DNA of 64,000 bases. It comes from a virus. The notes below the pieces were generated by a model, which made no database searches, had not been told where the DNA came from, and saw only the letters and a program-made list of their open reading frames with translations. Position 1 is the first letter of the stretch, and each line of letters starts with the position of its first letter. This document shows positions 4,603 through 62,486 of this stretch, piece by piece. Both the position numbers and the translations under genes were made by a program. The stretch is taken from positions 1 to 64,000 of IMG/VR virus record IMGVR_UViG_3300010413_002638. One strand, written 5' to 3'.

Positions 4603-4603
4603 T

Positions 4604-5386
4604 TTACCACAACCAGACACCCATAGGCTCACCTAGTTTAATGGCTTTCTCAATGATCTCCTCCTTCATTTGCATCCCTTCTTGGACGAGATCCGAGCCA
4701 TCATAATTAATAGAACCGCCATCAGGAGTAGGCATACCCGTCACTTTACGACGAGCCATCCCGAGAGCACATTTGGCCTCGGCCTCCATCATCTCGTAAC
4801 ACACGGCTCTTGCTTGTGGGCTACGAAAATGATTGACGACAGGAATGTAAAGGACAACAACCGGAAAAGCACCTTTCGGCGTTGGATAAAGGCGAATCAG
4901 TTGATCCTTGGCATCCAAGGCATCATCAGTTACATTCCCCTCGACTTCACCTATGACCTCCCAATGCCCTTCCGTTCCCAGTACTTTCTGAGAGAACTTG
5001 CGGTAGGCTTGCAACAAATGGTAGTCCGTGAGAATATTCTGGATACCAGAAATGTTCCCAATATTGAACAAAAAGGACTCGGCACCAAAGACATCATCTA
5101 TTCTGGTCGTCACCGGGTCCCAGTTAACAGATTGAACCCAATATGCGTCTTTTGGTAGAGGATACGTACATTGAAGTGGGGTGGTCCAAAAAGTAGCTAA
5201 TTTCTGCTCTCGCGGAAAATAGCCGGAGATGAAGTCACCAGATACGCGAAAGATTGTTTCCCATTGGTCTTCCGTGATCTCTACTTCCGTTACCGGGTAG
5301 CCCAGCTTAGAGAGGACATACTTCTTCATCGGTTCGCTGCGAACCTTCAGAACCGAAGGCAACTCAGCTGGAGCCAGAATCGCCAT
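4604..5386 (-). CDS. gp13-like neck / head completion protein
   Basis: 260 residues with a good GAGGG ribosome site. The early motif LGYPVTEVEITEDQWETIF near residue 28, with a helix and GYFPREQK following, is typical of T4 gp13-type neck proteins, which carry LG-x-P-v-x-V-E-L-x-x-D-Q near the N-terminus. The central FGAESFLFNIGNIS and the long helical C-terminus (YEMMEAEAKCALGMARRKV, then GGSINYDGSDL) also agree. gp13 works with gp14 to seal the packaged head and bind the tail. It is first in the order gp13-gp14-gp15-gp18, which supports all four calls. Confidence 0.6.
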   Translation of the reverse strand: MAILAPAELPSVLKVRSEPMKKYVLSKLGYPVTEVEITEDQWETIFRVSGDFISGYFPREQKLATFWTTPLQCTYPLPKDAYWVQSVNWDPVTTRIDDVFGAESFLFNIGNISGIQNILTDYHLLQAYRKFSQKVLGTEGHWEVIGEVEGNVTDDALDAKDQLIRLYPTPKGAFPVVVLYIPVVNHFRSPQARAVCYEMMEAEAKCALGMARRKVTGMPTPDGGSINYDGSDLVQEGMQMKEEIIEKAIKLGEPMGVWLW

Positions 5387-12390: not shown

Positions 12391-13315
12391 AGGGATATGG
12401 ATGCTTTGTCTCGTATTCGATTTTCTCTTCGCGCCAATTTTCCGGCCATCCAGGAACTGGCCAAAAATGATCGATGAACCATTCCATCTTCCTAGTTTGG
12501 CCGGGCCACTTGTTATTCATCCAGTACCAGGTGGAACGAGTTTGTGTCTCACGCATCTGCCGTATTGATAATCTATATCCGCGACGGTTCTCTCGTTTAT
12601 GCCAATGAGCGTACCAAGTATGCTTGTTGCGAATGAGTTTGCCGCCAGAAAGCCACGTCTTGAAACCTAACTCTTGGGCTTCTTGGTGAATATTGGTGAA
12701 TTGATAATCCATCCCACCAATATTGTAGAAATGCTCTCGGTGCATGAACCAACAAGATCCTTGCCAGGTTTGGATCTCATCAATAAGAATATCTTTCCTT
12801 TTGCGTTCCATCCAATAATATTCGCTGGGTCGCAAACTTTTGCCATTTCCGTGTTCCCCTAGCCATTTCTTCCCGTGCAGACCATCACCAAATTGGTTGT
12901 CTGGAAGATAGGGATATGTGACGAAGAGATACTCGATGGGTCCATAATTCCGTGACCATTCTTCAGCGTTAAGGCTCCAGCGACTAGGAACGCAAAGCCA
13001 ATTTGGTTCGCACCGTCCTTCTTTCTGGAGATCTTCGTCGAAGCCCTCTGCGAACATGCAATGGGCATCGGTTTTCATCAAGTATTTGCCGGTGGCGATA
13101 GCGGCTGCTGAATTAATAGCGTGCCGCATACCCATAGCTTCGGAACGGTGGATGATAGTAAGATTAGGGCGATCTTGTAAAATAGGGTCGCACCAATATC
13201 CATCTAGTACGACTATTACTTCAATTTCACCAGTGGCTTTATTAAAGAGGTCATCGACGGTCTTTGTCAGCCATTCCTCGTTACGTGATGGGACGATGAT
13301 CGAAACTTTAGCCAT
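12383..13315 (-). CDS. Family 2 glycosyltransferase (first-domain family of 6595 fusion)
   Basis: 310 residues from ATG 13315; a TTG two codons upstream has slightly better spacing to the GGAGG site, so the exact start is uncertain. The GT-A motifs are SIIVPSRNEEWLTKTVDDL, EVIVVLDGYWCDP, MGMRHAINSAAAIATGKYL and MKTDAHCMFAEGFD. The C-terminal part (KTWLSGGKLIRNKHTWYAHW and HFWPVPGW) is shared with the 6595 fusion protein (KTWLSGGQLLVNKTTWFSHL and FAPIPGW), showing common origin. It overlaps the end of the giant repeat gene, so the two are co-transcribed. Confidence 0.85.
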   Translation of the reverse strand: MAKVSIIVPSRNEEWLTKTVDDLFNKATGEIEVIVVLDGYWCDPILQDRPNLTIIHRSEAMGMRHAINSAAAIATGKYLMKTDAHCMFAEGFDEDLQKEGRCEPNWLCVPSRWSLNAEEWSRNYGPIEYLFVTYPYLPDNQFGDGLHGKKWLGEHGNGKSLRPSEYYWMERKRKDILIDEIQTWQGSCWFMHREHFYNIGGMDYQFTNIHQEAQELGFKTWLSGGKLIRNKHTWYAHWHKRENRRGYRLSIRQMRETQTRSTWYWMNNKWPGQTRKMEWFIDHFWPVPGWPENWREEKIEYETKHPYPYE

Positions 13316-16300
13316 TGACAATAATTCCTCCGAACACTCTGGTCATAATATGGCCACCTCTGCCTTTATATAGTACCACTGGAAACGCCGACAACGGTGA
13401 TATAGATGGCGAAACCGATGGCGAAACCGAAGGCGAGACGCTGGCACTCGGACTCAGAGAGGCCGAAGGAGATACGGACGGCGATTCCGACGGACTAATC
13501 GAAGCCGATGGCGAAACACTCGGCGAAGCACTCGGAGAAATACTCGCTGAGGGTGACAGAGACGGGCTGGCACTGGGGCTCTCACTAGGGCTGGCACTAG
13601 GGCTGTACGAAGGGCTCTCGGAGGGACTCGCACTTGGGCTTTCACTCGGGCTAGCACTCGGGCTAGCCGACGGGCTCCAAGATGGGCTAATACTCGGGCT
13701 CTCACTAGGGCTAACACTCGGCGAAGCACTCGCACTAGGGCTAACGGACGGACTTACAGACGGGCTCGCAGACGGGCTTCGGGATGGGCTGACACTCGGG
13801 CTTGCAGAAGGGCTCAAACTAGCAGAAGGACTCAGCGAAGGACTCGCTGAAGGCGAACGACTAGGACTAGCCGAAGGCGAAACACTGGGACTAACCGAGG
13901 GGCTCAAACTAGCTGACGGGCTCAGCGACGGACTGGCAGAAGGACTTCGGCTGGGACTAGCTGAAGGACTAGCGGAGGGACTTCGTGAAGGACTAACACT
14001 GGCACTAGGACTGAGCGAAGGGCTAGCCGAAGGACTTCTGGACGGGCTTCTGGACGGACTGATACTCGGGCTTGCAGAAGGACTCAAACTAGCCGACGGA
14101 CTCAACGATGGGCTCGCCGAAGGGCTCCGCGAAGGGCTCGCCGAAGGACTCCGCGAAGGACTGACAGAAGGGCTCACTGATGGACTAGCCGAAGGACTTC
14201 GAGAAGCTGACGGTGATAAACTCGGACTAGCACTAGGACTAACCGACGGACTAACACTAGCCGAAGGACTAAAACCAACCGATGGACTGACTGAGGGAGA
14301 CACCGAAGGCGAAGCAGAAGCCGAAGGACTAACACTCGGACTCGCCGATGGTGAAAGACTCGCAGAAGGACTCAACGACGGACTCGCCGAAGGGCTTCTA
14401 GATGGGCTCGCCGACGGGCTAATACTCGGACTCGCCGATGGTGAAAGACTCGCAGAAGGACTCAAGCTGGGACTAGCCGAAGGACTCCGCGAAGGACTCA
14501 CCGAAGGACTAACCGATGGTGATCGGCTGGGACTAGCACTGGGGCTAATACTTGGACTAACTGATGGAGAAAGGCTAGGACTAGCTGATGGCGAGAGGCT
14601 TGCCGATGGGCTTAAACTTGGGCTAGCGCTAGGGCTGGCACTAGGGCTCAGGCTAGGACTAGCCGAAGGACTCAAACTGGCACTCGGACTCAGCGATGGC
14701 GATGCTGAAGGGCTCACTGATGGCGAAGCCGAGGGGCTAACCGAAGGGCTGAGCGAGGCACTTCCAGGGATCGATGGGCTAACTGATGGGCTTTCTGACG
14801 GACTCGCTGATGGTGATTCGCTCGGGCTCGCAGAAGGACTCACTGATGGTGATGCACTCGGGCTTGCCGAGGGGCTAGCCGATGGTGAAATTATACCGCC
14901 AGCACCAATAGCAAGCAGCCAACCCTTATATGCCGTACTATCCGCCGCCCCATATGATAAAGTAAATCCATCAACATTAAAGCTAGACGTTGTAGCATAA
15001 GTCAGATCATTGCCTGTTGCCTCATCCCTGATGTCAATAACGCGCTCATTGCTTTCACTGTCAGTCTCAGTAGGATCAGCACCATCAACATCACGAATTC
15101 CAATAGCTGAATCTTGAATATTATCGGTAGCACCGATACCGAGAGTAAGGCCATCTGTGACAGTATCGGTTGAAGTGGCCGAGCATGCTGCACACATCAC
15201 CAAGGCTGGTGTGGAACCAAGACTACTATAATCCTTGGGTCCGGTGGCAGTTTCTGTGGTCAATGTCTCCAGATTAAACTGGCCGCCACCAAGATTTAGT
15301 GTTAAATAATAAGTATAATCACCACCGGAACCTCCGTCTCTAGTTGTTAACGTAAAACCATTTGTAGCAAACGCGGTTAATTCGCCAGTCCATACAATAG
15401 CGTCGTTGAGCATATCGCCACAACAACTGTCAGTCTCCACACGCTCGTTTGATACAGTAGCCAGAGCAGCATCGACACTCGACCACATCAATTGGCGTTG
15501 TGTCCTACTGCCATCATTTACAGCAACGCCGAACGTGCCAGTTTGCTGGCTGACAACAGGACCAGCGGAGGTATAACCGTTGCAGATAAAAAAGACGACA
15601 TCAGGCTCATAAGACAATGTCGTTACTGATGATGAGCTATTTTGTACAGTGTTAGCTTGTATGTAACCAACATTAGCCGATAAATCTGATCCGCCTATCA
15701 GAATGACAGTTGCTATACGAGCTGGAGGACTACCAGTAGTTGTTGTGGTAATCCTAATTCCGTCCGTAATATTAGCAATAGTATAGGTCGTACTGCCAGA
15801 ATCTAACCCATGCCCGACGACCGTAATATTCTGAGTGCGATACGTGTTAGTTGTGGCTAAACCACTGTCTGCACCAGACGCCATACAATGCTGATTAGTG
15901 CCATCCCAAAAACCAATCGACACCAACGAGCCAGCTACTGGATTGGCAGCACCAGATGCATGGCTGATTAAAATAATCGCAGCCTTAGGAGTCCCAAAAT
16001 CCGTCCGCGTAAAATCGGCAGTTCCGGAATTACTGGCAGATAATGCATCGCGGACTACGGCAAATCGAACATCAACGACAGGCAGCGTACTTGGGCTTGC
16101 CGAAGGACTAGCCGACGGAGACAAACTTGCACTCGGGCTCAACGATGGACTAGCCGACGGTGAAGCTGATGGACTTTCGCTCGGGCTTACCGATGGGCTA
16201 GCCGAGGGAGATAGACTTGCACTCGGGCTCAATGATGGACTAGCACTAGGGCTTTCGCTCGGACTTATGCTTGGGCTTGCCGATGGACTTCCGCTAGGAC

Positions 16301-19300
16301 TCTCCGATGGGCTAAGCGAAGGAGACAAGCTCGCACTTGGGCTAAGCGATGGGCTAGCACTGGGGCTTTCGCTAGGGCTCGCTGACGGACTGGCGCTTGG
16401 GCTTAGTGAAGCGCTGCCGGGTATCGAAGGACTAACCGAGGGACTTTCTGAAGGACTAGCGCTCGGACTCTCCGACGGACTTACCGAAGGTGAAAGGCTT
16501 GGGCTTTCTGACGGACTCGCCGAAGGTGATAGACTCGGGCTTTCACTCGGACTCGCCGATGGGCTAAGACTGGCACTCGGGCTCAGCGATGGTGAAGCGG
16601 ATGGGCTCTCGCTTGGGCTTGCTGATGGACTAACAGAAGGCGACAAACTTGGGCTTGGTTCGCCAAAATCCCAGTTCGTATTTCCGCCGCCATCCGTGTT
16701 CGTGCCGCCATAAGCAACACTGCGAGAATCAATAGTGTTGCCGAACGAAGCATCCGAATTAGTAATGGTCGTATAAGTAGCCGAACCTGTCCCACCACAG
16801 GCAACTTCCGCATAAGTGAAAGTGCACCCATTACCAAATCCGGAACTGCCAGAGATCGTAAAGTTACCAGTCGTCGTAATACGACCAGGTGTTACAGCAC
16901 TGGCAGTTATAGCCGTGCCAATACCCATAGCGAACGTGGTAGCATTAATATCAAACGTATCAAGATTTATAGTGCCACTAGAAGCTGCAACCGAAACAGT
17001 GGTACCACGCATATTACCAGTAAAGGTGGTGGTACTAGTAAGAGGAGAATTAAAAACAACAATGCCTAAGCTTATGAATCCACCCGAACCGACACCAAGG
17101 GCATCGATGTTACTATCACTGCCAATAAACGAAACTGTATTGGCTGCATTATCGAAATTGAGAAGGCCAGCTGATTCAGAAAGTGTGAAATCGCCTGCAA
17201 ATTCTACATCAGCGTTGACATCAATTGTATAAGTTTGTGAAGTATTATCAGCATCAAACTCAATATCACCAGTAAACCGGGTAGCCTGATTAATCGTAAA
17301 CGTCTTACCAGCACCACCTTCATGGTGGCAATAAATCAAACCCGTAGCTGCGAGGGTTACTGGATTCGCAGTACCCGTTATGGTAATATCTTGCTTAAGT
17401 TGGATATCGGCAGCAGAAATTGCGCCGCCACTTGTCACCGACAGTGTACAGCCACGCAAATAAATCGCGGCATTCGGTAGTTCTATTAGTCCAGCGGCAC
17501 CTATTGTCAGAGTACCGCCCTGCGATAAGAAAGCACCACTGCCGTACGTCGTGTTTCCAGAAAACGCACCATTGATCGTGTTCGCAACGCCGTTCGTAAA
17601 GATGAAGAGCGACGTGCCATTGAGCACAAAAGTGGCACCAGGGTCCAACGTGAAGTTATGCAAAACTTCAACGCGCTCACCACCAGTCTGCGTAATATCG
17701 CCACTGATCGTCAGATCATAAAAATCAGTGTCGAATCGCGGGAAGATATTACCAGTGCCAGTGAACTCGACGTGCGACGTGCCCCACGTCCAATTGGTGC
17801 TAGTAAAGCCGTTACTATTCCATGATCCGGCAACGTTGATCTTCGCGTCGCCAAGATCAATTGCGCCACTGGCACCCTGGAATAAGACATTACCAGCGAC
17901 ATTATACGTCTCGGTAGTATCGCCGAAATCGATAACTCCGGCATTAGTTGTTTCGACAGTAAGACTGTCAGTAGTATATCCGCCAGTGAAAGTGAGGGTG
18001 CCAGCGCTCTTGTCAATGCTGATATCTTCGACGGTCAAATCAAATAGATCGACGTTTTGGCTGTTAGCACCTTCGAAATAGATGGTGCCACTACCCTTGG
18101 TCCACGCTATAGTGCCAAGAGTTTGTGAAAGCGTGAGATCGCCGTTGAAGATAAGATCAGCTGTACCGGTACTAACAGTATAAGATCCACCAGAAACGTT
18201 CGCGTCAAACGAAACATTACCAGTAAATGTTGATGTGCCAGTAAACGCGCAAGTATACGGTGTTCCGCTTTGTGCAGTGAAGCTCCAATTTCCACCAAAA
18301 ATGCCACCAGCAACAGTCGCTTCTCGATAAGCATTATATCCATGATTCCAGGTGCCACCAGCCGTATTATCATATGTCGCATTAAAGCCATAGCTCTGAC
18401 CGGTATGACTCAGCACACCAGTCGCGGTCAAAGCCAATGTACCACCAGTTTCCATATTGAAACTGGAAGTGCCAGTCACCGTGCCAGCAATATTTGCATT
18501 TCCATTAACACGCAAAGAAAGAGATATCGTAAAAATCTTGCTGACGTTTACAGTTATGTTATTGCAATATCCGACTGTTACCCCAGTAAGAATTGTATCA
18601 CCAGCAATAATGAGATTACCAAGGCGTTTGGTAGTAGTGGTAGTGATGGTTTTACTTGCCCCGCTCATGGTCAACGACCACAGCGTGCTCGTTGTCCACG
18701 TCGTCTGGTCTTTATTATCGAAGTTACCACCAACAGTGAAACTAGCGTTACCACAATCAACGGTTCCTACACCATCAAATATAGCATCATTCGTTATATC
18801 GACCGTATAGCCACTATCAGCGAAATCTAGCACACCATCATAAGTTGCTAGAACCGTCAACGACTTCATCGCCGCATTCGTATTGAGCGTGCAATTCGCA
18901 GTCGTATAGCTCCCATCAAAATAAACGTCATCATCTGCTGTCGGGACACCAGCATTGAAACCGCCAGTACCGCCACTCGTCGCGGCCCAGTTCGTATCCG
19001 TGTTCCAGCTACCATCCGTATCACCAACCCAATAACGATCACCACTAGGTGGCGTGGAGGGGCTGGCAGATGGTGAGGCGGAAGGGCTTAGCGAGGCTGA
19101 TGGACTCAACGAGGGACTAGCTGAAGGTGATACACTCGGACTCTCCGATGGCGAAGCCGACGGACTCAGCGAAGCGCTCTCCGCAGCTGACGGGCTAGCA
19201 CTCGGGCTCTCCGATGGACTAACCGACGGACTCAAACTAGCTGATGGACTAAGCGATGGCGACTCACTCGGACTGGCACTTGGACTCGCCGACGGACTCG

Positions 19301-20600
19301 CAGAAGGACTCGCCGAAGGCGAAAGACTGGCACTTGGACTCAGCGATGGACTCTCGCTGGGACTCGCTGAAGGACTAAGACTAGCCGATGGGCTCAGCGA
19401 CGGACTCTCGGAAGGCGAAACACTCGGGCTAGCTGATGGACTCTCGCTGGGACTAGCACTCGGACTAAGACTGGCACTCGGACTAAGCGACGGACTCTCA
19501 GAAGGACTAGCACTTGGGCTCAGTGATGGGCTTAAACTCGCTGATGGGCTCAACGACGGACTAGCACTCGGACTAGCACTTGGGCTCTCTGATGGGCTTA
19601 CCGAAGGGCTAGCACTCGGACTAAGACTAGCGCTCGGGCTCAGCGATGGACTCTCTGAAGGACTCGCTGAAGGACTCTCTGAAGGACTCGCCGAAGGGCT
19701 AAGCGACGGGCTCTCGGACGGCGAAGCACTCGGACTCAAACTAGCCGAAGGACTGAGGCTAGGACTCTCACTCGGGCTCGCCGACGGCGACAAACTAGCA
19801 CTCGGACTAAGACTAGGGCTCTCACTCGGGCTTGCCGAAGGGCTCTCAGATGGACTAGCTGACGGACTCTCCGAAGGGCTTGCCGAAGGGCTCTCGGAAG
19901 GACTCGCCGAAGGACTCAACGACGCACTAGGACTAAGCGAAGGACTCTCCGAAGGGCTCGCCGAAGGACTCTCGGACGGACTCGCCGAAGGACTAGCAGA
20001 TGGACTCTGCGAAGGACTAGCCGAAGGACTCCGCGAAGGACTAGCAGATGGGCTCAACGACGCACTCTCATGCGCCGGAGTCGTCAAATTCGGGTAACTG
20101 ATACTGGTGGTAACACTCGTAGTACCAATCTGCAACACACGAAAGCGAAACAACTGACCGTCAGTAACAGTGCCAGTAGCCTGAATACAAAGGTCGAATT
20201 CATTATTCTTGTTTTTATCGACAGTGGACGAAAAAGTCCCACTCTCAAGATACTGACCTTGGTTGTCACAAGTAGACAACAAATAAGGACCAGCCGGAGA
20301 AGGAGGACTATCACCTCCCTCTGTAGCCAAACCATTATGCCAATTCCATTCAGCACCAGAACCAAGAGTTACCCAATTATTATCATTCTTATCATATTGG
20401 ACAGTCCACGCACCGCTACCGTTAGCACCACCAGTCTCCGTCATAGCCATTCGCAAACGAAGAACATGACTAATATTAGTCATGGTAAACGTCGCTTGCT
20501 CACCGGCAAAGGCATCCGTTGGGTCAACTGGCTCAACGTTGGCGTTTAATTCGCCAAACCACTGCCAGTTGGTCATAGATGGGGTAAATGTACTAGCCAT
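13308..20600 (-). CDS. Giant Ser-Pro repeat protein, probable fibre or adhesin
   Basis: 2430 residues. Residues 1-177 are a beta-rich N-terminal domain; about 179-515, 1315-1506 and 1905-2411 are SPSxSPS repeat tracts (x = A, E, L, V, R or I); about 520-1313 form a long beta-solenoid with short repeating Thr/Gly/Asn strands (RYWVGDTDGSWNTDTNW at its start); about 1508-1904 form another beta domain with a few Cys; the last 20 residues are GRGGHIMTRVFGGIIVNG-like. There is no signal peptide, which fits a virion protein made in the cytoplasm. Ser-Pro tracts are extended and often O-glycosylated, and the downstream operon is full of glycosyltransferases. The product is probably a long fibre or surface adhesin; the exact role is inferred. 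Confidence 0.8.
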   Translation of the reverse strand: MASTFTPSMTNWQWFGELNANVEPVDPTDAFAGEQATFTMTNISHVLRLRMAMTETGGANGSGAWTVQYDKNDNNWVTLGSGAEWNWHNGLATEGGDSPPSPAGPYLLSTCDNQGQYLESGTFSSTVDKNKNNEFDLCIQATGTVTDGQLFRFRVLQIGTTSVTTSISYPNLTTPAHESASLSPSASPSRSPSASPSQSPSASPSASPSESPSASPSESPSLSPSASLSPSASPSESPSASPSESPSASPSESPSASPSESPSLSPSASLSPSASPSESPSLSPSASLSPSASPSESPSLSPSASPSESPSASPSESPSLSPSASLSPSASPSVSPSESPSASPSASPSLSPSASLSPSLSPSASPSESPSLSPSASLSPSASPSESPSASPSVSPSESPSLSPSASLSPSASPSESPSLSPSASLSPSASPSASPSASPSASPSESPSLSPSASLSPSVSPSESPSASPSAAESASLSPSASPSESPSVSPSASPSLSPSASLSPSASPSASPSTPPSGDRYWVGDTDGSWNTDTNWAATSGGTGGFNAGVPTADDDVYFDGSYTTANCTLNTNAAMKSLTVLATYDGVLDFADSGYTVDITNDAIFDGVGTVDCGNASFTVGGNFDNKDQTTWTTSTLWSLTMSGASKTITTTTTKRLGNLIIAGDTILTGVTVGYCNNITVNVSKIFTISLSLRVNGNANIAGTVTGTSSFNMETGGTLALTATGVLSHTGQSYGFNATYDNTAGGTWNHGYNAYREATVAGGIFGGNWSFTAQSGTPYTCAFTGTSTFTGNVSFDANVSGGSYTVSTGTADLIFNGDLTLSQTLGTIAWTKGSGTIYFEGANSQNVDLFDLTVEDISIDKSAGTLTFTGGYTTDSLTVETTNAGVIDFGDTTETYNVAGNVLFQGASGAIDLGDAKINVAGSWNSNGFTSTNWTWGTSHVEFTGTGNIFPRFDTDFYDLTISGDITQTGGERVEVLHNFTLDPGATFVLNGTSLFIFTNGVANTINGAFSGNTTYGSGAFLSQGGTLTIGAAGLIELPNAAIYLRGCTLSVTSGGAISAADIQLKQDITITGTANPVTLAATGLIYCHHEGGAGKTFTINQATRFTGDIEFDADNTSQTYTIDVNADVEFAGDFTLSESAGLLNFDNAANTVSFIGSDSNIDALGVGSGGFISLGIVVFNSPLTSTTTFTGNMRGTTVSVAASSGTINLDTFDINATTFAMGIGTAITASAVTPGRITTTGNFTISGSSGFGNGCTFTYAEVACGGTGSATYTTITNSDASFGNTIDSRSVAYGGTNTDGGGNTNWDFGEPSPSLSPSVSPSASPSESPSASPSLSPSASLSPSASPSESPSLSPSASPSESPSLSPSVSPSESPSASPSESPSVSPSIPGSASLSPSASPSASPSESPSASPSLSPSASLSPSLSPSESPSGSPSASPSISPSESPSASPSLSPSASLSPSASPSVSPSESPSASPSASPSLSPSASLSPSASPSASPSTLPVVDVRFAVVRDALSASNSGTADFTRTDFGTPKAAIILISHASGAANPVAGSLVSIGFWDGTNQHCMASGADSGLATTNTYRTQNITVVGHGLDSGSTTYTIANITDGIRITTTTTGSPPARIATVILIGGSDLSANVGYIQANTVQNSSSSVTTLSYEPDVVFFICNGYTSAGPVVSQQTGTFGVAVNDGSRTQRQLMWSSVDAALATVSNERVETDSCCGDMLNDAIVWTGELTAFATNGFTLTTRDGGSGGDYTYYLTLNLGGGQFNLETLTTETATGPKDYSSLGSTPALVMCAACSATSTDTVTDGLTLGIGATDNIQDSAIGIRDVDGADPTETDSESNERVIDIRDEATGNDLTYATTSSFNVDGFTLSYGAADSTAYKGWLLAIGAGGIISPSASPSASPSASPSVSPSASPSESPSASPSESPSVSPSIPGSASLSPSVSPSASPSVSPSASPSLSPSASLSPSASPSLSPSASPSASPSLSPSASLSPSASPSLSPSVSPSISPSASPSRSPSVSPSVSPSRSPSASPSLSPSASLSPSASPSISPSASPSRSPSASPSLSPSASLSPSASPSVSPSASASPSVSPSVSPSVGFSPSASVSPSVSPSASPSLSPSASRSPSASPSVSPSVSPSRSPSASPSRSPSASPSLSPSASLSPSASPSISPSRSPSRSPSASPSLSPSASVSPSRSPSASPSASPSRSPSASPSLSPSASLSPSVSPSVSPSASPSRSPSASPSLSPSASLSPSASPSVSPSRSPSASPSVSPSVSPSASASPSVSPSESPSISPSWSPSASPSASPSESPSASPSESPSYSPSASPSESPSASPSLSPSASISPSASPSVSPSASISPSESPSVSPSASLSPSASVSPSVSPSVSPSISPLSAFPVVLYKGRGGHIMTRVFGGIIVNG
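13396..14888 (-). repeat. Ser-Pro repeat tract 3 (about 500 codons)
   Basis: Coding repeat of SPSASPS/SPSLSPSASLSPS units. Ser codons of both families and all Pro codons are mixed, so the protein repeat is much more regular than the DNA. Arg appears often at the variable position here, unlike tract 1 where Glu and Leu dominate. Confidence 0.95.
16083..16658 (-). repeat. Ser-Pro repeat tract 2 (about 190 codons)
   Basis: Shortest of the three SPSxSPS tracts, joining the beta-solenoid to the second folded domain. It contains an interruption, SIPGSASLSPS, that also occurs once in tract 3, a sign of internal duplication. Confidence 0.95.
19053..20066 (-). repeat. Ser-Pro repeat tract 1 (about 335 codons)
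   Basis: Tract between the N-terminal domain and the beta-solenoid. It is built from LSPSASLSPSASPSESPS blocks, acidic because of the frequent Glu at the variable position. The complementary strand is also free of stops in one frame, a by-product of the codon composition. Confidence 0.95.
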
Positions 20601-43217: not shown

Positions 43218-44411
43218 CTATCTATATATACGATACAATTTCCACTTCTTCCACTTCTTACCGATGCTTACCTTCACCGGGAAAGTCGGATTATCATCCA
43301 ATATTCCCTCAAATGGACGCAACATAATATTGGCAACTTGTTCGATAACCCAATTCATATGTTTCGTATTGGGAGCACAAGAAACAACCAAAGAGTCGTG
43401 AATTTCTGCGACTATTCGCGGACCAAGTTTCTCCCAAATCCGTCTAATTACTAGTTGCATAGCATGGGCAACCGAGCCCTGCATGGCACCGTTCAAGGCA
43501 GCAAGCTCGTTCTTAGCCTGACTACTTCGGAATTTTCTACCCAAAATAGTTTCCACATAGCCGTCATCTGCCTTCAGGGCACGCTTGCAATTACGTATCC
43601 ATTGTCCTAGTCTCGGATAGATCGTAGCCAATGGTATACTGCCAAAGTCCATCGAGTTAATAGATTTCAACAAAAATCTTTTGCTTTCCTCACGGGTCAT
43701 TTCACCCACAGCATCGGCATTAATCACATTCATCATATAGGTATATGGATCAGAATCAACGAATGATCTCGTGAGATCTTCATCATTCGACAGCAAAGAT
43801 GCAACTCTAATATCGGCACATATCCAATCAAAATGCAATAAATAATAATTATCGTGACAATTAGTAGGCCATATCATCACCTCATCAGCCAGCCCCTGAA
43901 TATTGAAGCCGGTGGTTTTGCTACGACCCGAGAAAGTACGTTGCGAATAAATAGGATTTACCGGCATATAATTATACATAAGGCCGGTTCGTTCCAAATC
44001 TTCATAGACAATAGCGGCGTTTGCCAAAACTTTCTGATATTGACGCGGAGTTTGCTTGGCCATCTTGTCTAAAATCTTGGCCAATATAGCAGAATCTTTT
44101 TCTAAGTCAACGGTCGGTTCTATAATAGGGAAGTGCAGATCGTAGACATTGTACGGCTTCACATCTAGCGGAATATCGAATGCTTTGACGCTCGTTTTGA
44201 AGTCAGAAGTGACAACCGAAATGCCGCGATTACTAGCAGCTATGATCGTCTTACGAACATCACTAATAGATTGAAAAACATCAGCTAATAATCGGCCAGC
44301 ACCAGGCCGATAGTGCTCACGTATGATAGTCTCGTTGCCGATTTTTATACCGGTACAGCGGGGCTTGCCGGTGTGCTTATCATAGAGAGTGTAAACATAG
44401 ATAGCTCGCAT
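43218..44411 (-). CDS. Family A DNA polymerase, exonuclease-less and unusual
   Basis: 397 residues, polymerase domain only, against about 600 for a Klenow-type core. Motif A is FDWICADIRVASLLS with the catalytic Asp at 195 (Asp replaces the usual steric-gate Glu). Motif B has the R-x-x-x-K pair (245, 249) but three extra residues come before the Phe-Gly (256), and the usual Tyr-Gly is not kept. The QGSVAHAM segment is near 311. Motif C is IHDS at 337-340 with Ser where Glu is usual. There is no 3'-5' or 5'-3' nuclease domain; a FEN nuclease is encoded at 40299. It may be a repair or primer-handling polymerase beside the split DnaE. GAGG precedes the ATG. Confidence 0.82.
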   Translation of the reverse strand: MRAIYVYTLYDKHTGKPRCTGIKIGNETIIREHYRPGAGRLLADVFQSISDVRKTIIAASNRGISVVTSDFKTSVKAFDIPLDVKPYNVYDLHFPIIEPTVDLEKDSAILAKILDKMAKQTPRQYQKVLANAAIVYEDLERTGLMYNYMPVNPIYSQRTFSGRSKTTGFNIQGLADEVMIWPTNCHDNYYLLHFDWICADIRVASLLSNDEDLTRSFVDSDPYTYMMNVINADAVGEMTREESKRFLLKSINSMDFGSIPLATIYPRLGQWIRNCKRALKADDGYVETILGRKFRSSQAKNELAALNGAMQGSVAHAMQLVIRRIWEKLGPRIVAEIHDSLVVSCAPNTKHMNWVIEQVANIMLRPFEGILDDNPTFPVKVSIGKKWKKWKLYRIYR

Positions 44412-54858: not shown

Positions 54859-55413
54859 CTATGATTGCGTGGACCACTTGCCAGCTGACTTGCGAATCTG
54901 CTCAGCCTTCTTACGTAGCCCCAAAAAGGAATCTTCTGACAAACTGAACTCCAAAAATCGATCATCAGTATGTATCGACGCTGGTTTTACATAATTTGTG
55001 TTGCCACACGAACAAGCCTTGTCCGCATCAAATGTCTTCTTTTGGCACTTAGTGCAAATATTCGGTTGCCCAGCCATTCTGACATCGACCTTGGTCGCAG
55101 TGCAATAATAATAGCTGTAATTCGCCCCAAATTTTTCACCAGTGAGTTCACAAATATGTGGAGCACGTTGCCGTCGTGTTCCCGACATCACGAGCTTATA
55201 ATTATTGATTATTTGCTGACTCAGTGTTGAAAAACACGCCGTGCAGATGTCCAACGAAAACACAATTTGTGAGTGATACAGCGTATCCAAGCCAGGCATA
55301 CGACCGTCAGTCACTGTAATATGCCGGAAATCAAACGAATAATAGATAAAATCATTGCGATAAGAAGCACCACAATGATCGCAAGCTATCCCACTTCTGT
55401 CACTGGTTTGCAT
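54859..55413 (-). CDS. Cys-rich zinc protein, unknown
   Basis: 184 residues with GGAGA before the start. Zinc-type pairs occur at the N-terminus (IACDHCGASYRNDF), around residue 56 (DICTACFSTLS), and at 118-136 (PNICTKCQKKTFDADKACSC), the latter a ribbon of four Cys. Aromatic strands lie between them (NYSYYYCTATKVDVRM). Its place next to the polymerase gene suggests a nucleic-acid role. No family recognised. Confidence 0.6.
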   Translation of the reverse strand: MQTSDRSGIACDHCGASYRNDFIYYSFDFRHITVTDGRMPGLDTLYHSQIVFSLDICTACFSTLSQQIINNYKLVMSGTRRQRAPHICELTGEKFGANYSYYYCTATKVDVRMAGQPNICTKCQKKTFDADKACSCGNTNYVKPASIHTDDRFLEFSLSEDSFLGLRKKAEQIRKSAGKWSTQS

Positions 55414-55427
55414 AAATAGTCTCCATA

Positions 55428-58172
55428 CTATTTATTCAACTTCTCCATCCTCTCCGCCTCATAGGCTTCTCTCCAACCACGATGGAGTAGTTTAATAATT
55501 ACCTCACCTCGCACCAAAGTGAAGGTATTGCGCATCTCATCATATTCGACAAAGAGCTGCACACCAGTACCAGGTTGCTGGATCATCTCTAAATCCTGCA
55601 TCAACAGAGCCTTGCCAAAAAGCATCACCAGAGTGCTTTGGATGCCGTCACTAATCACCAGTCTACCGTATGGCTTGTTGTTCTTTGATTCCGCCATTTC
55701 AAAACCTATGATAACGCCCTCCAATTTGGCCTCACCATTCTTAACGGAATTCACTTTCGCATCTTCAATAGTGCAACCGCCCTCTATCTCATACACATCC
55801 AAAGGAGAGTGTAAATAATATCCAAGATATTCCTTCTCGAACTCAAGCATTTGTTCAATAGTGAAGTCCTCTGGAAACAAGGACATTACTTTCTCGGGAG
55901 AATCATCAGGGACCGGCTTCCAATTCTCCATTTTGGTCGGAACCTTGCGGCGATTTGGATATGCTTTGAAATATTCATCAATTTGGCGTTGACGTTCTTG
56001 TTCGATAGCTTCGTCCGTCCAATCATCCAGCAGCAACAATTTTCGCCTTATCTCCTGGCGGAGCTTGGTGATGTCCTTGCCACTGCAATATTTGTACCTG
56101 TAATACTCCCAAGTCGCCTGAGCATTTTCGTATCCTGGAAACTGCCTGAATGACCCCAATTTGATGAAACGCTCAAAAACCGACTTGTCCTTCCCTGCCG
56201 AGTCAACCATATCATCCAAAGAAGTAAATTGCCGTTGGCTGGTCCATTTTTTAGCGGCAACATCGCCCAACCCCTTGATGCCAATCAAACCCTGGTTCAC
56301 CACATCGCCCGTAACCGTGAAATTGGCGGTCATATTCTCCACATTGATCGTGTCGAACTTCACGCCACGAGCACGTTGCTTCGGTTGGAACTTGCCACAA
56401 TACGTGATATCCGTCGGTTCCCAGTTCTCAGACCGTGCCACGCCCATATAACGAACGAGTTTGTCCGGATGGCAATCGCTCATCACCGCCGCCCAGAACT
56501 CTGGCGCGAAATGAGCCTTCAACCATAAACATCGATGAGCCACCAGGCAATAACTGACAGCATGGCTGCGGTTAAACGCATATCGCCCAAACGTCTCCAT
56601 CTTCGTCCACCACTGCTCCGCTTCCTGCTCACCCAAAACACGCGAAGCACCGCGTACCCATTTCTCCTTGATGGGCTTGAGCTTGTGCGTCCATTTCTTG
56701 GCTACAGCCTTACGAGCCTCCTGAGCCTCCGGAGCCGTAAAACCAGCCACAAGCTGCCAAATAGCCTGCAACTGCTCCTGATAAACAATGACTCCATAAG
56801 TGTCTTTCAAGACACTAAGAATATCCGGATGTAATTTCTTCTGCCAACGGCCTGATGTATCATCGCGGTTTGCCACCGCATCCGGAATAGAGGCCATAGG
56901 ACCAGGATGCCCCATGGCATTAAAGAGCATCAGATCCTCAAAATTCCGTACACCATTCTGCAAGATACTCTTGGCCAGATTCGTATCGAATTGAAAAACG
57001 CCATCTGTCTTCTGGGCGTTTGCCAGTGCAAGCGCGTACTCGTCATTTAGGTCAATATATCGTTTATTCCCGTCGCCGTCGAAGAAATGACCAGCTCGGC
57101 TTTGTGTAGGATCAATATCATCCCATCCGTCCATGTTCTTGCCAAAAGAGATACCACGATTCCGCTCGATCAATTTGCAACATTCGAAGATATACTTGAG
57201 CGTCTTGAGACCGAGAATGTCCCACTTAACATAACCAAACTTGGACAGCTGTGTGTTACGGCCTTCCGTCCACATGCTGATCCAATAGCCACCCTTCTTG
57301 CTCTTAGCCAGCGGAATATTGCCGTAGAGAGAGCGATCGGCAATAATCAGGGCACCAGCGTGCATACCCATATTGCGAACGCGACCTACCAACTTGACCG
57401 CATAATCAACGATCTTAGGGTGCTTCTTGGCGAATTTGAGGAGATCTTCATGGTCTCGCAGAAGTTTACCAATAGTAATTCCATCTGTGTCAGCAGATCC
57501 GCATTTAGGGCACTTGGTAGCGTTATGCGAATGCCCACATTCAGTCTCTTCACCGGTATCTGCATTGACGACACGGCCCTTACAATTAGACTTGCCTCCA
57601 TCCTTTAGATCATCCACTTCATCCGGCAGATTGGTCGTAAGTGATAAAATCTCCTGTTTATCCAGCCAGCCGGTGGCGGCACAGACATCGATAAGAGCAG
57701 ATCGGAATTTGTAGGTTGTCCATGTGCCCACACTGCAGACAGCACCATAACCGTCTTTGATGTGCGCACCGAATTTCCGCATCGCATATTCTTTAATAGG
57801 ATCACGGGCTTCCGGTAGACAATCTATATCAATATCCGGTTGGTCTGGATCTTTGATGAGATCAGGCGGGATAAAGCCCTGGTCGCGCTTGAAATCTGAT
57901 ACCACAGAAGCCCGCACGCTATTGAGCATGGGCGTGGTGCGAGCAGCAATCGGGTCTCCTTCGACCATTCCCAACAACCACGGCAACAAAAGAAAGTTGG
58001 GATTAGAAGAGAATTTCTTGCCGTCGTTGTAGAGATTCGTCCAGTAAGTGATAGCACCTTGCTTCTCAACTTCCTGGATTTCGAATTTCAGCCGTTCTTG
58101 ATACTCTTGGCCGTTCTTGCGATTTGCTTTGTTTGCTATCTCTTTGATTTCTTGCCAAGAGACTTCAGCCAC
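55428..58172 (-). CDS. DNA polymerase III alpha, C-terminal half (split DnaE)
   Basis: 914 residues, GTG start with GAGG ten bases upstream. Catalytic Asps are present: DQPDIDIDCLPEARDPIKEY (residues 110-129, pair at 115 and 117) and KFGYVKWDILGLKTLKY (Asp 318). It has a zinc ribbon insert (Cys 197, 212, 221, 224), the NRSHAVSYCLVAHRCLWLK finger segment, a helix-hairpin-helix (GLIGIKGLGDVAAKKW) and an OB domain near 800. The PHP domain and the RGSAG loop are absent and lie in the other gene (59467). Residues 20-110 resemble a degenerate copy of the region just before the catalytic motif in normal DnaE. No intein motifs at the N-terminus. Together the halves total 1386 residues. Confidence 0.93.
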   Translation of the reverse strand: MAEVSWQEIKEIANKANRKNGQEYQERLKFEIQEVEKQGAITYWTNLYNDGKKFSSNPNFLLLPWLLGMVEGDPIAARTTPMLNSVRASVVSDFKRDQGFIPPDLIKDPDQPDIDIDCLPEARDPIKEYAMRKFGAHIKDGYGAVCSVGTWTTYKFRSALIDVCAATGWLDKQEILSLTTNLPDEVDDLKDGGKSNCKGRVVNADTGEETECGHSHNATKCPKCGSADTDGITIGKLLRDHEDLLKFAKKHPKIVDYAVKLVGRVRNMGMHAGALIIADRSLYGNIPLAKSKKGGYWISMWTEGRNTQLSKFGYVKWDILGLKTLKYIFECCKLIERNRGISFGKNMDGWDDIDPTQSRAGHFFDGDGNKRYIDLNDEYALALANAQKTDGVFQFDTNLAKSILQNGVRNFEDLMLFNAMGHPGPMASIPDAVANRDDTSGRWQKKLHPDILSVLKDTYGVIVYQEQLQAIWQLVAGFTAPEAQEARKAVAKKWTHKLKPIKEKWVRGASRVLGEQEAEQWWTKMETFGRYAFNRSHAVSYCLVAHRCLWLKAHFAPEFWAAVMSDCHPDKLVRYMGVARSENWEPTDITYCGKFQPKQRARGVKFDTINVENMTANFTVTGDVVNQGLIGIKGLGDVAAKKWTSQRQFTSLDDMVDSAGKDKSVFERFIKLGSFRQFPGYENAQATWEYYRYKYCSGKDITKLRQEIRRKLLLLDDWTDEAIEQERQRQIDEYFKAYPNRRKVPTKMENWKPVPDDSPEKVMSLFPEDFTIEQMLEFEKEYLGYYLHSPLDVYEIEGGCTIEDAKVNSVKNGEAKLEGVIIGFEMAESKNNKPYGRLVISDGIQSTLVMLFGKALLMQDLEMIQQPGTGVQLFVEYDEMRNTFTLVRGEVIIKLLHRGWREAYEAERMEKLNK

Positions 58173-58534
58173 TTTTGATATTCCTCTAACTTGTCAGCAT
58201 GATTACTTTTTACATGCAGCGTCCGCCCACTAGTGCTAGACATAGGTTTGTTGCAAAATGGACAACACAGCTGATCGGTCGGAGCTGGTTCTGGTACTGG
58301 TTCCACCTGTGTGGGTCTGGGAATAGTATCTGGGTCCAATTCCCATGGTTGTATGGCAACCAATCTACCCTGGCGTTTTTCCATAGGTGCAGAATAGAGA
58401 CAATAACCAGCCTCCACTGCCCTATTTAGCAGCTCCTGATACTCTGAGTTATTCTTTAGTTTGTGCTGCGATATAATGCGGCTCGGTGGTTTAACCAGAA
58501 TGAAAGCAGTATGCTTGAAGTCAATCTTGTTCAT
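58136..58534 (-). CDS. Small protein with C2H2-type zinc finger
   Basis: 132 residues, overlapping the DnaE C-half gene by 37 bases. The N-terminus is basic, the middle Pro/Glu-rich, and the C-terminus holds QLCCPFCNKPMSSTSGRTLH followed by VKSNHADKLEEYQKWLK, a CxxC...HxxxxH finger. Such fingers bind DNA or act in homing-type and regulatory proteins. It is the first of three genes that sit between the two halves of DnaE. Function unknown. Confidence 0.6.
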   Translation of the reverse strand: MNKIDFKHTAFILVKPPSRIISQHKLKNNSEYQELLNRAVEAGYCLYSAPMEKRQGRLVAIQPWELDPDTIPRPTQVEPVPEPAPTDQLCCPFCNKPMSSTSGRTLHVKSNHADKLEEYQKWLKSLGKKSKR

Positions 58535-58976
58535 CCGGCAAATGGTCCACAGTCTGTGAATCGTATTGTTGCTGAGATAGACAAATCCTGCTCGCTAGCG
58601 ACCGGCAGACAGCAAGATTTTCGTTATTGGGCGAATCAACTACAAATCCGACATCTTCGAAGAACCCCACCCATCGTACGAACTCATCTATCTCCTGCTT
58701 GTATCCTTTCACATCGCCCCTCAAATAATTTAATACTGTCTCGTCGGGGAAGTGCATAATTATTTTAAGTTTTCGACAGGCCGGATTAACAGCGGCCAAA
58801 GCCAATTTAGCAGCCTGGATCTTAGCCCTATCGATCTCGGAACCACCTAGCCCAAAACCCAACAACCGACACCGCACCTGGTCATTAGAGCTAAACATTA
58901 GAAGAATACCACACGAACTCAATTGCATGACCTCGTTGGCATTCCTGATAGAAATCGCACAGAAAATATCGATCAT
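58521..58976 (-). CDS. RNase H-like fold protein without clear catalytic residues
   Basis: 151 residues. Strand-helix order (DIFCAISIRNANEV, GILLMFSSNDQVRCRLLGFG, SEIDRAKIQAAKLALAAV, KLKIIMHFPDETVLNYLRGD, then GFVVDSPNNENLAVCRSLAS) follows the RNase HI fold including the late Asn-rich turn. The four acidic catalytic positions are not conserved. A structural or nucleic-acid-binding role is possible. It is the middle gene of the cassette inside the split DnaE. The fold is a visual guess. Confidence 0.4.
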   Translation of the reverse strand: MIDIFCAISIRNANEVMQLSSCGILLMFSSNDQVRCRLLGFGLGGSEIDRAKIQAAKLALAAVNPACRKLKIIMHFPDETVLNYLRGDVKGYKQEIDEFVRWVGFFEDVGFVVDSPNNENLAVCRSLASRICLSQQQYDSQTVDHLPDEQD

Positions 58977-59467
58977 AGTAGATTATTCTTGAGATCTCGG
59001 ATCTCTGGGTAAGTCGATTTGGTATACGATTGTAGGGCACGCAACGCCTCAGCAATCCCCCGCAAAACAGCATTTTTTGCCGCTCGCTTGTCAGGTAGAC
59101 CCCGCGACCTACCCACCAACACCAACAATTGATCGGCGTGAGCCTTCACGTTGTCCGGGAATGTCTCATCCTTGGCTTGGGCCTTTATCATCCGTTCATC
59201 AAAAGAACGCTGTAGCCAAATAGCCAAAGATTCAATCACGTGGAAAGACAAATCAGCACATTCTTTCTCCACCCTGGCGAGGCAAGTTTTTCTATTACCC
59301 TCATTCTCCAAGGCGTTATACAAGTCATCCACCACATCAAGTAATTTCACCAGGAACACTGACAACTGGGGGCTTGGACCGCCCTGCAGCAGAACATGTG
59401 TATAGATGGAATGCTTCAATTCAGCAAGAGATTCGGTGGCCGACGGGCCAATAGGTGTCTGCATCAT
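58973..59467 (-). CDS. Helical protein, unknown
   Basis: 164 residues, starting in TAATG directly at the stop of the DnaE N-half and coupled by ATGA to the next gene. It is all helical (LKHSIYTHVLLQGGPSPQLS, KLLDVVDDLYNALENEGNRK, ADLSFHVIESLAIWLQRSFD). The helix pattern recalls MazG-like or four-helix domains, but the metal-binding motif is not visible. It lies in the cassette that splits DnaE. Function unknown. Confidence 0.6.
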   Translation of the reverse strand: MMQTPIGPSATESLAELKHSIYTHVLLQGGPSPQLSVFLVKLLDVVDDLYNALENEGNRKTCLARVEKECADLSFHVIESLAIWLQRSFDERMIKAQAKDETFPDNVKAHADQLLVLVGRSRGLPDKRAAKNAVLRGIAEALRALQSYTKSTYPEIRDLKNNLL

Positions 59468-60885
59468 TACTCACTCGGCATTTTGACGTTCAACATGTAT
59501 CCACCACGGCTCGACGCCAGGAACCGGTCAAACGAAAGACCCCACAACAATGGGTCCAAGACGTGAATCCCCAGCAGAAAACAAACCAGCGAACCGCCAG
59601 CACTTCCACGTGGACTGAAAGGCCAACCTCGTTTCTTTCCGTACTTAATAAGATCCTTGGTGATAAGGAAGTAGCTAGCGAACCCTTTATCAATAAACCG
59701 GTTCAATTCAATACTAGCCTGTTCCCTATAAGTCACCTCGCGGCCATCGATGAGAAATTTGGTCTTACATTTCTCCAATCCACGCCACCGCAATTCCTTA
59801 ATGACCAGTTTACACAACTCATTATCAGCATCAGATATCTCGGGATATTTGGGAGCAGTATCAACACCAAATTTCTCACAGCGATCGGCAACCATTAGGG
59901 TATTATCGCACAATTGATCAAAAGTTCGGTTGTCTATGCCGTTACTGTAATTGCCGTTACGGAACGTGGCCCATAATTCTGCCCGCGACTTCATGAATTG
60001 TTCATCACTATTGACATGGAATAGATCCGGCGAATCGATGGTTGTTTCCTGGGCGACAGCCATCATCAGTTTCTGCAATATGAAGTCAGCTCGATTGAGA
60101 TAATGACAATCATTGGTGAGTACAACAGGAATCTTGAAGAAATCAGCGATAGATATCAACTCACGAAATACCTTATCATCCTCTGGGATGCCAGGCATTT
60201 GAACTTCAAGATAATAGTCCTGGCCGAATGCTTTCTTGAACTTCTTGATGTATTCGACAGCCGCGTCTAATCTGGCCTTCTTTTTCCGCTCGACCAGAAC
60301 CTTTCCTTCTTTGTCGGTGAGCTGTTTATAGCGAAGCTCATGAGACACTGGCCCATTTAGACACCCAGACAACACTATGAGTCCTTCGCGAAACTCGCAA
60401 AGTTTATCGAACCAGATCCTATTGTATTGTGTACTACCCATACCGAATAGACCGGTCTCATAAGCTTGGGTTGTCAATCTTACGAGATTATGAAATCCGG
60501 TTTCATTCTTGCAAAGGACCGTCAAATGTCTATTGCGCCTGATACGGCTGGAAGTGTCTGGATTTTCTTCCTGCCATTCTTTCGAGCGAAATTTGATTCC
60601 TTTTGCCACCAGTTCTTGTCGTAATGGTTCGAAGTCATTGAAGTAAATTTCGCAACCTGGGATGTACTTCAAGCCGTGCTTCTTGAAGGCGAGATACATG
60701 TCAGGCACGGAAGCCATATGGCCGTGCTCTGTAGCACTCATAGCGGAGTAGCCGCGAGCTGCACATTGCTCGGCATACTGTTCTGGCGTAGCCACGCCGT
60801 CCAGAGCTGAAAAGACGGTGTGATTGTGCAGGTGCACGAAATCAGAAGGGCCGGTATATTCTTCAGGACTGAATTCTTCTGACAT
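59467..60885 (-). CDS. DNA polymerase III alpha, N-terminal PHP half (split DnaE)
   Basis: 472 residues. The PHP domain starts with FVHLHNHTVFSALDG (His 19, 21), then SATEHGHM, GCEIYFNDF and NRHLTVLCKNETGFHNLVRL. The end is the palm start: WPFSPRGSAGGSLVCFLLGI near 422-441 and DPLLWGLSFDRFLASSRGGY, then a short end where the catalytic PDxDID should be. Instead it reads MLNVKMPSE and stops. The catalytic Asps are in the gene at 55428. No intein is seen at the C-terminus, so the halves probably join without splicing. The stop TAA overlaps the ATG of the next gene. Metal-binding PHP residues look kept. Confidence 0.93.
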   Translation of the reverse strand: MSEEFSPEEYTGPSDFVHLHNHTVFSALDGVATPEQYAEQCAARGYSAMSATEHGHMASVPDMYLAFKKHGLKYIPGCEIYFNDFEPLRQELVAKGIKFRSKEWQEENPDTSSRIRRNRHLTVLCKNETGFHNLVRLTTQAYETGLFGMGSTQYNRIWFDKLCEFREGLIVLSGCLNGPVSHELRYKQLTDKEGKVLVERKKKARLDAAVEYIKKFKKAFGQDYYLEVQMPGIPEDDKVFRELISIADFFKIPVVLTNDCHYLNRADFILQKLMMAVAQETTIDSPDLFHVNSDEQFMKSRAELWATFRNGNYSNGIDNRTFDQLCDNTLMVADRCEKFGVDTAPKYPEISDADNELCKLVIKELRWRGLEKCKTKFLIDGREVTYREQASIELNRFIDKGFASYFLITKDLIKYGKKRGWPFSPRGSAGGSLVCFLLGIHVLDPLLWGLSFDRFLASSRGGYMLNVKMPSE

Positions 60886-61528
60886 TAGCCACTATTTCGT
60901 CGTTGATGTTGTACAATGACTGACTTCTAAACACTGTCTGGCACACTCGCTCGATCAACTCATTATCTAGGTCAGTCGTATCCGGGTAATTAGGCGTCGT
61001 TGGTTGTCTTCCCAAGCGGCGTATAAATCCTTCAAATATCGCTGCCGCGCTAGGCATATTAAAATTACAAGTTTGCCAAAATCTGCATAAGTAATTATAT
61101 AGCCTATTTCTGCCACCTTTCTTCAATAACCTGTCGAAGTTATCAACAATAGATTTTACGTGGATCTCTTCTATTTTGGCGGGATCGATCAACTCGATAA
61201 AGTAAGACCTGGCGTAATCGTTGGTGAGATCTGTTTGAAAGATCGTTCGCCTGGACTCTATTACGGCTTGGGTAATTAATTGGCGAACGTTTTCTGCTGA
61301 AAGCCCACATGATAACCCAACGGAAAACGCCTTACTCATATCGCGTAGGCCACGCAACGAATGCCTTTGATCGGTCTTTGCTTGCAACCAATTATCGAGA
61401 TTCGGCACCACCATCTTATGCAACGTATTATCAAATAGTTCTGGTAGATTCGCACTGTCGCGGAAATAAAATAGCTCTCCATCGATCTCGAAAACAGTCA
61501 CCGTTTTCTCAACATATCTAATAATCAT
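60863..61528 (-). CDS. Phage protein, unknown, upstream of DnaE N-half
   Basis: 221 residues from ATG 61528. The N-terminus is beta-like (MIIRYVEKTVTVFEIDGELF), the rest helical with many Arg/Leu/Phe (SAENVRQLITQAVIESRRTI, NRLYNYLCRFWQTCNFNMPS). Its start codon lies in CATG, which on the other strand is the start of the plus-strand glycosyltransferase. It overlaps the DnaE N-half by 23 bases and may be co-expressed with it. No family recognised. Confidence 0.6.
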   Translation of the reverse strand: MIIRYVEKTVTVFEIDGELFYFRDSANLPELFDNTLHKMVVPNLDNWLQAKTDQRHSLRGLRDMSKAFSVGLSCGLSAENVRQLITQAVIESRRTIFQTDLTNDYARSYFIELIDPAKIEEIHVKSIVDNFDRLLKKGGRNRLYNYLCRFWQTCNFNMPSAAAIFEGFIRRLGRQPTTPNYPDTTDLDNELIERVCQTVFRSQSLYNINDEIVANVRRIQS

Positions 61529-62486
61529 GTTATCTAACAATCGAAGAAGAGAAATAAGCGTCGTTGTCGTTTGCGGCGACCAATACCACGATTATCTCCG
61601 AACAGCTATAGACAGCATTCGAAGACAAACCATTCAGCCAGATGAGATAATAATAGTATACGACAACACCGAGCCAAGTATGACCTCCTACCCATATCTA
61701 CAAACACACAATGACAACCCTCTCGCCAGCCGCAGGGACGGATTTGCCGCTACCAGCAAAGAAACAGTCTTTTTCCTAGACGCCGACGACTATATCAGCG
61801 ATGATTATATCGGTTCTGGTCTGGCCCTCAAAACCGACAACAACATAGTCTACTCAGACGTCCGCCTCTTCGGAACAATGAACAAAACATTACGTTATTC
61901 ACCCAAATTCATGTCCCAAGAAAACTATCTGCATGTAGCCAGTCTCATCAGTCGCGACGCAATCGACATAGCAGACGCCTTCAACCCAATACCACCAGTC
62001 GATTGCCATGAAGACTGGGTATTCTGGCGGCGATTATTAAAAGCCGGATGCCCAACTATCAAACAACCTGGCATCCACTACCACCGAGAACATGAACACA
62101 ACCGTTCCAAGAAAATCGTGCAACACGAATTTCCCATAGCCAAGGGAATCTGGTGTGATACTATTGGCTTCGTTCGCGCGGACGGCCAAGAACACGAAGA
62201 GCAAGTCTTACAACAATGGCCACCAGAACAGAGAGAATTATACACCATAGATAACCCGGATATCAGAGCAATCAACAAAATCCTCCAGAGAACAAACGCT
62301 GACTATTTGTTATTCTATAGCACAAAAGACCTACAAATGATTAGAATGATGGCAGATCTAGACTACGGTGTGGCAATTGTCCAAGCCCGTGATTTACCAA
62401 TGTGGTATGGAACACTCATCGTCGTTGACCTACTCAAAGCTCAATCACCGTCTTACACGTTTAACGGCAAATCGATACTGGTCTAA
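61527..62486 (+). CDS. Family 2 glycosyltransferase
   Basis: 319 residues. The GT-A part has REISVVVVCGDQYHDYLRTA, RQTIQPDEIIIVYDNTEPSM and TVFFLDADDYISDDYIGSGL with the DADD metal site near residue 91, then a DCHEDWVFWRRLLKAGCPTI acceptor-side segment near 175. The last 100 residues are an extra domain. There is no clear ribosome site; the ATG shares CATG with the divergent minus gene. It begins a plus-strand run of sugar enzymes with TAATG coupling. Confidence 0.8.
   Translation: MLSNNRRREISVVVVCGDQYHDYLRTAIDSIRRQTIQPDEIIIVYDNTEPSMTSYPYLQTHNDNPLASRRDGFAATSKETVFFLDADDYISDDYIGSGLALKTDNNIVYSDVRLFGTMNKTLRYSPKFMSQENYLHVASLISRDAIDIADAFNPIPPVDCHEDWVFWRRLLKAGCPTIKQPGIHYHREHEHNRSKKIVQHEFPIAKGIWCDTIGFVRADGQEHEEQVLQQWPPEQRELYTIDNPDIRAINKILQRTNADYLLFYSTKDLQMIRMMADLDYGVAIVQARDLPMWYGTLIVVDLLKAQSPSYTFNGKSILV

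Follow-up and report, generated by a model that had tools for sequence, protein, structure and literature searches.

In a 64,000-nucleotide window of viral DNA, DnaE (the bacterial-type DNA polymerase III alpha subunit) is encoded as two open reading frames (ORFs) on the minus strand, with three small ORFs between them. The window comprises positions 1-64000 of the virus record IMGVR_UViG_3300010413_002638, which has 112,804 bp and is possibly incomplete. The two genes very probably specify an obligate two-chain, proofreading Pol III alpha that arose by duplication and reciprocal loss and would assemble without splicing. The break falls inside the palm, between the GS loop, which binds the deoxynucleoside triphosphate (dNTP), and the catalytic PDxDID motif. 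The same break is found in about 30 IMG/VR contigs of up to 408 kb, a count that includes near-identical ones (e.g., L007/L010 and L163-L165), and C-half identity among them is 35-76%. All come from metagenomes and are possibly incomplete.

The N-half (472 aa, 59467..60885) carries the PHP domain, the start of the palm and the dNTP-binding loop and covers positions 1-395 of TIGR00594, a model of full-length Pol III alpha with 1022 positions. The C-half (914 aa, 55428..58172) carries a copy of the junction, the catalytic palm, the fingers, HHH and a C-terminal OB region and covers positions 398-1022. Thus, no canonical part of DnaE is missing; the enzyme is only divided. In Pfam, the palm family PF07733 is split between model positions 16-98 in the N-half and 100-260 in the C-half, so that neither polypeptide holds a complete palm, and the PHP domain (PF02811, E 9.9e-34; N-half residues 18-229, 60199..60834), fingers (PF17657) and HHH (PF14579) are all matched across the halves. 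The original prediction, made from the sequence alone, had described an N-half with a PHP domain and RGSAG loop that ends in MLNVKMPSE (59470..59496) where PDxDID belongs, and a 914-aa C-half with PDIDID and the third Asp. Both descriptions held when the halves were aligned to Pfam and full-length DnaE models, as it had proposed, and profile alignment identifies the tail as a decayed counterpart of the catalytic strand.

The residues characteristic of C-family polymerases are complementary in the two chains. RGSAGGS (residues 426-432, 59590..59610) lies in the N-half, and D113 and D115, within PDIDID (residues 112-117, 57822..57839), lie in the C-half together with D318 in KWDILGLKTL (57219..57221). 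In alignments of both halves, relatives show little or no variation at the catalytic and GS-loop positions, and P112, D113, D115 and D117 are invariant. In an alignment to 7pu7, the N-half has H20, H22, D29, H54, E79, H120, C175, D259 and H261 at the positions of all nine PHP metal ligands of M. tuberculosis DnaE1. The C-half alignment also places a zinc-ribbon-like insertion in the palm (C197, C212, C221 and C224; 57501..57584). The ratio of nonsynonymous to synonymous substitution rates (dN/dS) between relatives L027 and L038 was ~0.013 for the N-half, ~0.028 for the C-half and ~0.06 for the N-terminal extension of the C-half. Judged by these ratios, both halves are under strong purifying selection.

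Proposed function of the two chains

In the proposed enzyme, the N-half would supply the PHP proofreading nuclease and the GS loop holding the incoming dNTP, and the C-half would supply the three catalytic aspartates, the fingers, HHH and the OB region. The halves would fold around each other via the palm to form a non-covalent heterodimer without splicing, and the enzyme can probably work only once both chains have assembled. More tentatively, a large-phage lineage may use for replication a proofreading DnaE that has an active site only where its two chains meet, and the reciprocal remnants described below might form a domain-swapped interface that controls assembly.

Each half was modelled as a monomer by AlphaFold2 from 13-sequence alignments. 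The PHP domain, fingers and extension were of fair confidence (mean of ~80 for the extension in the C-half alone). Confidence was below 50 for palm residues 106-153 and 264-322 of the C-half alone and for the GS loop and tail of the N-half alone. In these models, the low-confidence parts of the palm are as expected if each needs the partner chain. Foldseek returned Pol III alpha structures for both monomer models.

The window also encodes a PolA-like ORF, a 5'-3' exonuclease, a DnaB-like helicase and a gp32-like protein, and further ORFs read as an NAD-dependent ligase and RecA. These bacterial-type replication genes fit a bacterial-style division of labour in which the split DnaE would be the replicase. 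A different possibility is that the pair is no polymerase, with the N-half serving as a PHP nuclease or dNTP sensor and the C-half as a DNA-binding or repair factor, and that another enzyme, e.g., the PolA-like protein (window 43218-44411), replicates the genome. In its favour, neither half has a whole palm by itself, and the short PolA-like ORF (370-450 aa) is also present in 11/11 related genomes tested. However, this ORF matches PF00476 mainly in its last third and would suit a role in removing primers alongside the adjacent 5'-3' exonuclease, and the possibly incomplete 112.8-kb record yielded no DnaQ, PolB (family B polymerase, PF00136) or beta clamp. Together with the near invariance of the catalytic residues of both halves across ~35-76% identity, this makes a non-polymerase role improbable.

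Some relatives differ in their complement of polymerase and exonuclease genes. In the genome G005, the N-half (L065) is missing several PHP ligands (HLNVH, TEVGY) and is adjoined by a DnaQ-like exonuclease ORF, an apparent replacement of the proofreader. Another genome with a split DnaE also carries a second, PHP-less DnaE-like protein (L068; G006:87323-87496, 561-aa frame) that is 38% identical over its full length to one in the huge phage LR756508.

Junction copies and the origin of the break

The C-half begins with an extension (residues 1-108, 57849..58172) that was originally described as a decayed copy of the palm segment just before the catalytic motif, and comparison of profiles bore this out. 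The extension family hidden Markov model (HMM) matched 76 of 93 unsplit DnaEs at E<=0.05; among decoys it matched 0 reversed and 1 shuffled sequence. All but three of the 76 matches (73/76) stop 5-60 aa ahead of PDxDxD. HHalign aligned the extension profile collinearly with unsplit DnaEs (E 7e-9) and with the N-half (E 3.7e-5). These profile comparisons establish homology between the ~108-aa start of the C-half and the palm segment ahead of the catalytic motif. Profile alignment shows that the C-half copy is without the VGPGRGSAAGS loop and FERFLNPER and keeps two helices and LLGITxIDPI, most clearly in L162, L163 and L157. The N-half retains RGSAGGS and FDRFL, yet closes with MLNVKM opposite the PDIDID of unsplit enzymes. 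As far as the alignments go, the pattern in the two halves is one of reciprocal loss. The earlier suggestion that each half has a degenerate copy of the junction therefore stands for the C-half; in the N-half, decay is limited to the last ~9 residues and the loop and helices are intact.

Signals from single sequences were weak. The extension of L037 matched PF07733 at E 0.0014, and BLAST of the extension gave E 0.001 at the expected place (seven-protein set). The window extension by itself had no Pfam match and matched phrog_405 only at E 0.039. An extension so barely detectable would suit a simple gene fission at the catalytic strand, followed by gain of a convergent helical adaptor that is no remnant at all. 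Against this, the family HMM lands on the pre-catalytic palm segment in nearly every match, and LLGITxIDPI is kept in deep members; we regard fission followed by gain of an adaptor as very unlikely.

Under duplication and reciprocal loss, one DnaE lineage would have been duplicated first. Copy 1 would have kept the front and lost the catalytic strand (PDIDID to xLNVKM, then a stop), and copy 2 would have kept the back and lost the PHP domain, the GS loop and the FERFL segment. The ~108-aa remnant of the palm start in copy 2 would have been retained as a structural element. We infer the order of these events and the role of the remnant. In phylogenetic trees, the N-halves and the C-halves are each monophyletic (SH-aLRT, a Shimodaira-Hasegawa-like approximate likelihood ratio test, 100 each), and the patristic distances of the two trees correlate (r=0.96). 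The nearest unsplit relative of the C-half is the DnaE of the huge phage LR756511.1 (L014; SH-aLRT 99), and a sister relation of the N-half to the same DnaE was not rejected (approximately unbiased (AU) test, p 0.64). A chimeric origin from two DnaE lineages was considered, as quick trees differ in the nearest relatives of the halves. Since the AU tests (p 0.64 and 0.20) reject neither alternative, it is not claimed.

Several points weigh against the two-chain reading or against details of it. Correlated trees are also expected from co-inheritance in a phage. The extension is closer to canonical DnaE than to the N-half tail (7e-9 vs 3.7e-5), so that the remnant could derive either from a second full-length copy or from an internal duplication limited to the N-half tail. 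The extension may be a leftover without a role, though it is under purifying selection, and the low confidence of the modelled palm could reflect the shallow 13-sequence alignment. Duplication and reciprocal loss leading to a two-chain polymerase without splicing, as put forward in the original prediction, is nevertheless the best-supported reading, with the active complex as the part that we infer.

Inteins and conservation of the break

No intein signature had been visible at the junction, and searches with intein models agree: neither window half gave a match at E<=1, and TIGR01445 matched the controls L009 (E 0.0048) and L036 (E 0.017). With these positive controls, the model search leads us to reject an intein at the window junction. 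Inteins of relatives sit at RG|SAGG in the N-half and at FGRYAFN(R/K)|SHAVSY in the C-half. Inteins have thus entered the split-DnaE genes more than once, but the conserved break is none of those sites. That inteins occur in both genes of relatives lends some plausibility to the idea that a split intein missed by the models rejoins the halves post-translationally, in the manner of cyanobacterial DnaE. However, besides the silence of the models on the window halves, the place for the C-part of such an intein is occupied by sequence homologous to the DnaE palm, and splicing at the junction would yield the palm segment twice. An undetected intein is accordingly a highly improbable explanation.

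The inteins of the relatives take several forms. An intein or insertion inside the dNTP-binding loop, at RG|SAGG, was seen in L011 (9200-9820), L036 (near 4249-4679) and L054 (11275-12658); that of L011 reads as an in-frame mini-intein. A split intein at FGRYAFN(R/K)|SHAVSY was seen in L009, L012, L036 and L166. In L009 (13250-15280) and L012 (12380-14560), the split intein at AFN(R/K)|SHAVSY flanks an ORF that resembles Vsr-like homing endonucleases; this site is near, not identical to, the intein site of cyanobacterial DnaE. In L166 (10001-16171), a natural split intein at FGRYAFNK|SHSCAY breaks the C-half a second time, and the two resulting parts are on opposite strands. Trans-splicing would therefore be obligatory in L166, making a three-gene polymerase.

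A search of related contigs for the break point and for unsplit orthologues, as first suggested with the prediction, found no unsplit version among the about 30 related IMG/VR contigs. In the genome G005, the halves are ~16 kb apart. In G001, the N-half is near 144-145 kb on the plus strand and the C-half at 85,316-87,940 on the minus strand, about 55 kb away. Unlinked halves on opposite strands exclude an assembly error or joining in cis, barring misassembly of G001. An assembly or frameshift artefact, or joining in cis via an intron or bypass, can be set aside: introns or inteins do occur in the gene of relatives and L160 is interrupted near the junction, but the break is shared by ~30 contigs with conserved intervening genes, the G001 halves are unlinked, and no Rfam gathering match to an RNA intron was found in seven related loci. 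In L160 (10216-10623; also in L159), the C-half extension is separated from the catalytic motif by ~400 nt that contain stops and change the frame; part of this interruption resembles a Hint/intein fragment. No isolated phage with the same split was found; the best N-half matches in the phage database were <=32% identical and were unsplit in those examined. The DnaE of Myxococcus phage Mx1 is unsplit, and the top matches listed in a GTDB scan were unsplit bacterial DnaEs of ~25% identity.

In the window, the stretch around both DnaE halves reads as one tightly packed gene array, all on the minus strand, in which ORFs overlap their neighbours by 1-37 nt except for a 14-nt gap after the C-half. 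The N-half is adjoined upstream by a 225-aa ORF (60863..61540). Between the halves lie ORFs of 164 aa (58973..59467), whose ATG overlaps the N-half stop, 151 aa (58521..58976), conserved in several relatives, and 132 aa (58136..58534), which is zinc-finger-like and overlaps the C-half start. The C-half starts with GTG, with AGAGG ~10 nt upstream, and is adjoined downstream by a 184-aa ORF (54859..55413). These upstream, intervening and downstream neighbours are common to related loci. Elsewhere, at window 13308-20600, a 2430-aa ORF is dominated by S-P-S-A/E/L repeats between folded-looking segments and is probably a virion surface protein.

Comparison with other divided DnaE proteins

To our knowledge, the residues that bind the nucleotide and those that bind the metal lie on a single chain in replicative polymerases. 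A natural break between the two sets in a full-length proofreading DnaE, stable enough to persist in divergent phages (35-76% C-half identity), would mean that two proteins can form one active site together with no need for splicing. The remnants left in the two halves would be a readable record of a gene duplication that turned one enzyme into an obligate heterodimer, and the pair could serve as a polymerase split by nature with which to control DNA synthesis.

Cyanobacterial DnaE is likewise encoded by two unlinked genes; its chains are broken at a C-terminal site, FAEY|CFNKSH, and become one again by trans-splicing through the halves of a split intein. Unlike that break, the one in the window lies inside the palm and has no intein. 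Fractured genes with split inteins and Vsr-like homing endonucleases were reportedly described by Dassa in 2009; such an arrangement is seen in the relatives L009, L012 and L166 elsewhere in the C-half, not at the window junction. The actinophages Terapinvirus Sienna and LilyPad and Krampusvirus Anakin also have DnaE in two neighbouring genes without reported inteins. Their break is between the PHP domain and the palm, leaving the GS loop and catalytic Asp in one chain, whereas the window N-half runs past the GS loop. The DnaE of LR756511.1 is a single 1183-aa chain with one canonical junction, in contrast to the two chains of the window. Four PHROG profiles, two from the N-side (7513 and 13169, about 460 aa) and two from the C-side (12219 and 21652), suggest that known phages contain other divided DnaEs.

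The closest parallel in the division of the active site is the minimal split Pol III alpha of group 2.2 jumbo phages, in which the NTP-binding part is apart from the Mg2+-binding part (Iyer et al. 2021, PMC7824862). Both are phage Pol III alphas encoded by two unlinked genes, one with the dNTP-binding part and one with the Mg2+/template-binding part. The group 2.2 form is described as consisting of the catalytic core alone, with none of the remaining Pol III domains, and occurs together with PolB (PMC7824862); the window DnaE, in contrast, has PHP, HHH and OB regions, and PF00136 is absent from its possibly incomplete record. A search with a PHP-less DnaE-like query did not identify the minimal split version. 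The window family also has a degenerate junction copy. Because the two features that define group 2.2, no PHP domain and the presence of PolB, do not apply here, the full-architecture split DnaE is a new form beside that published precedent.

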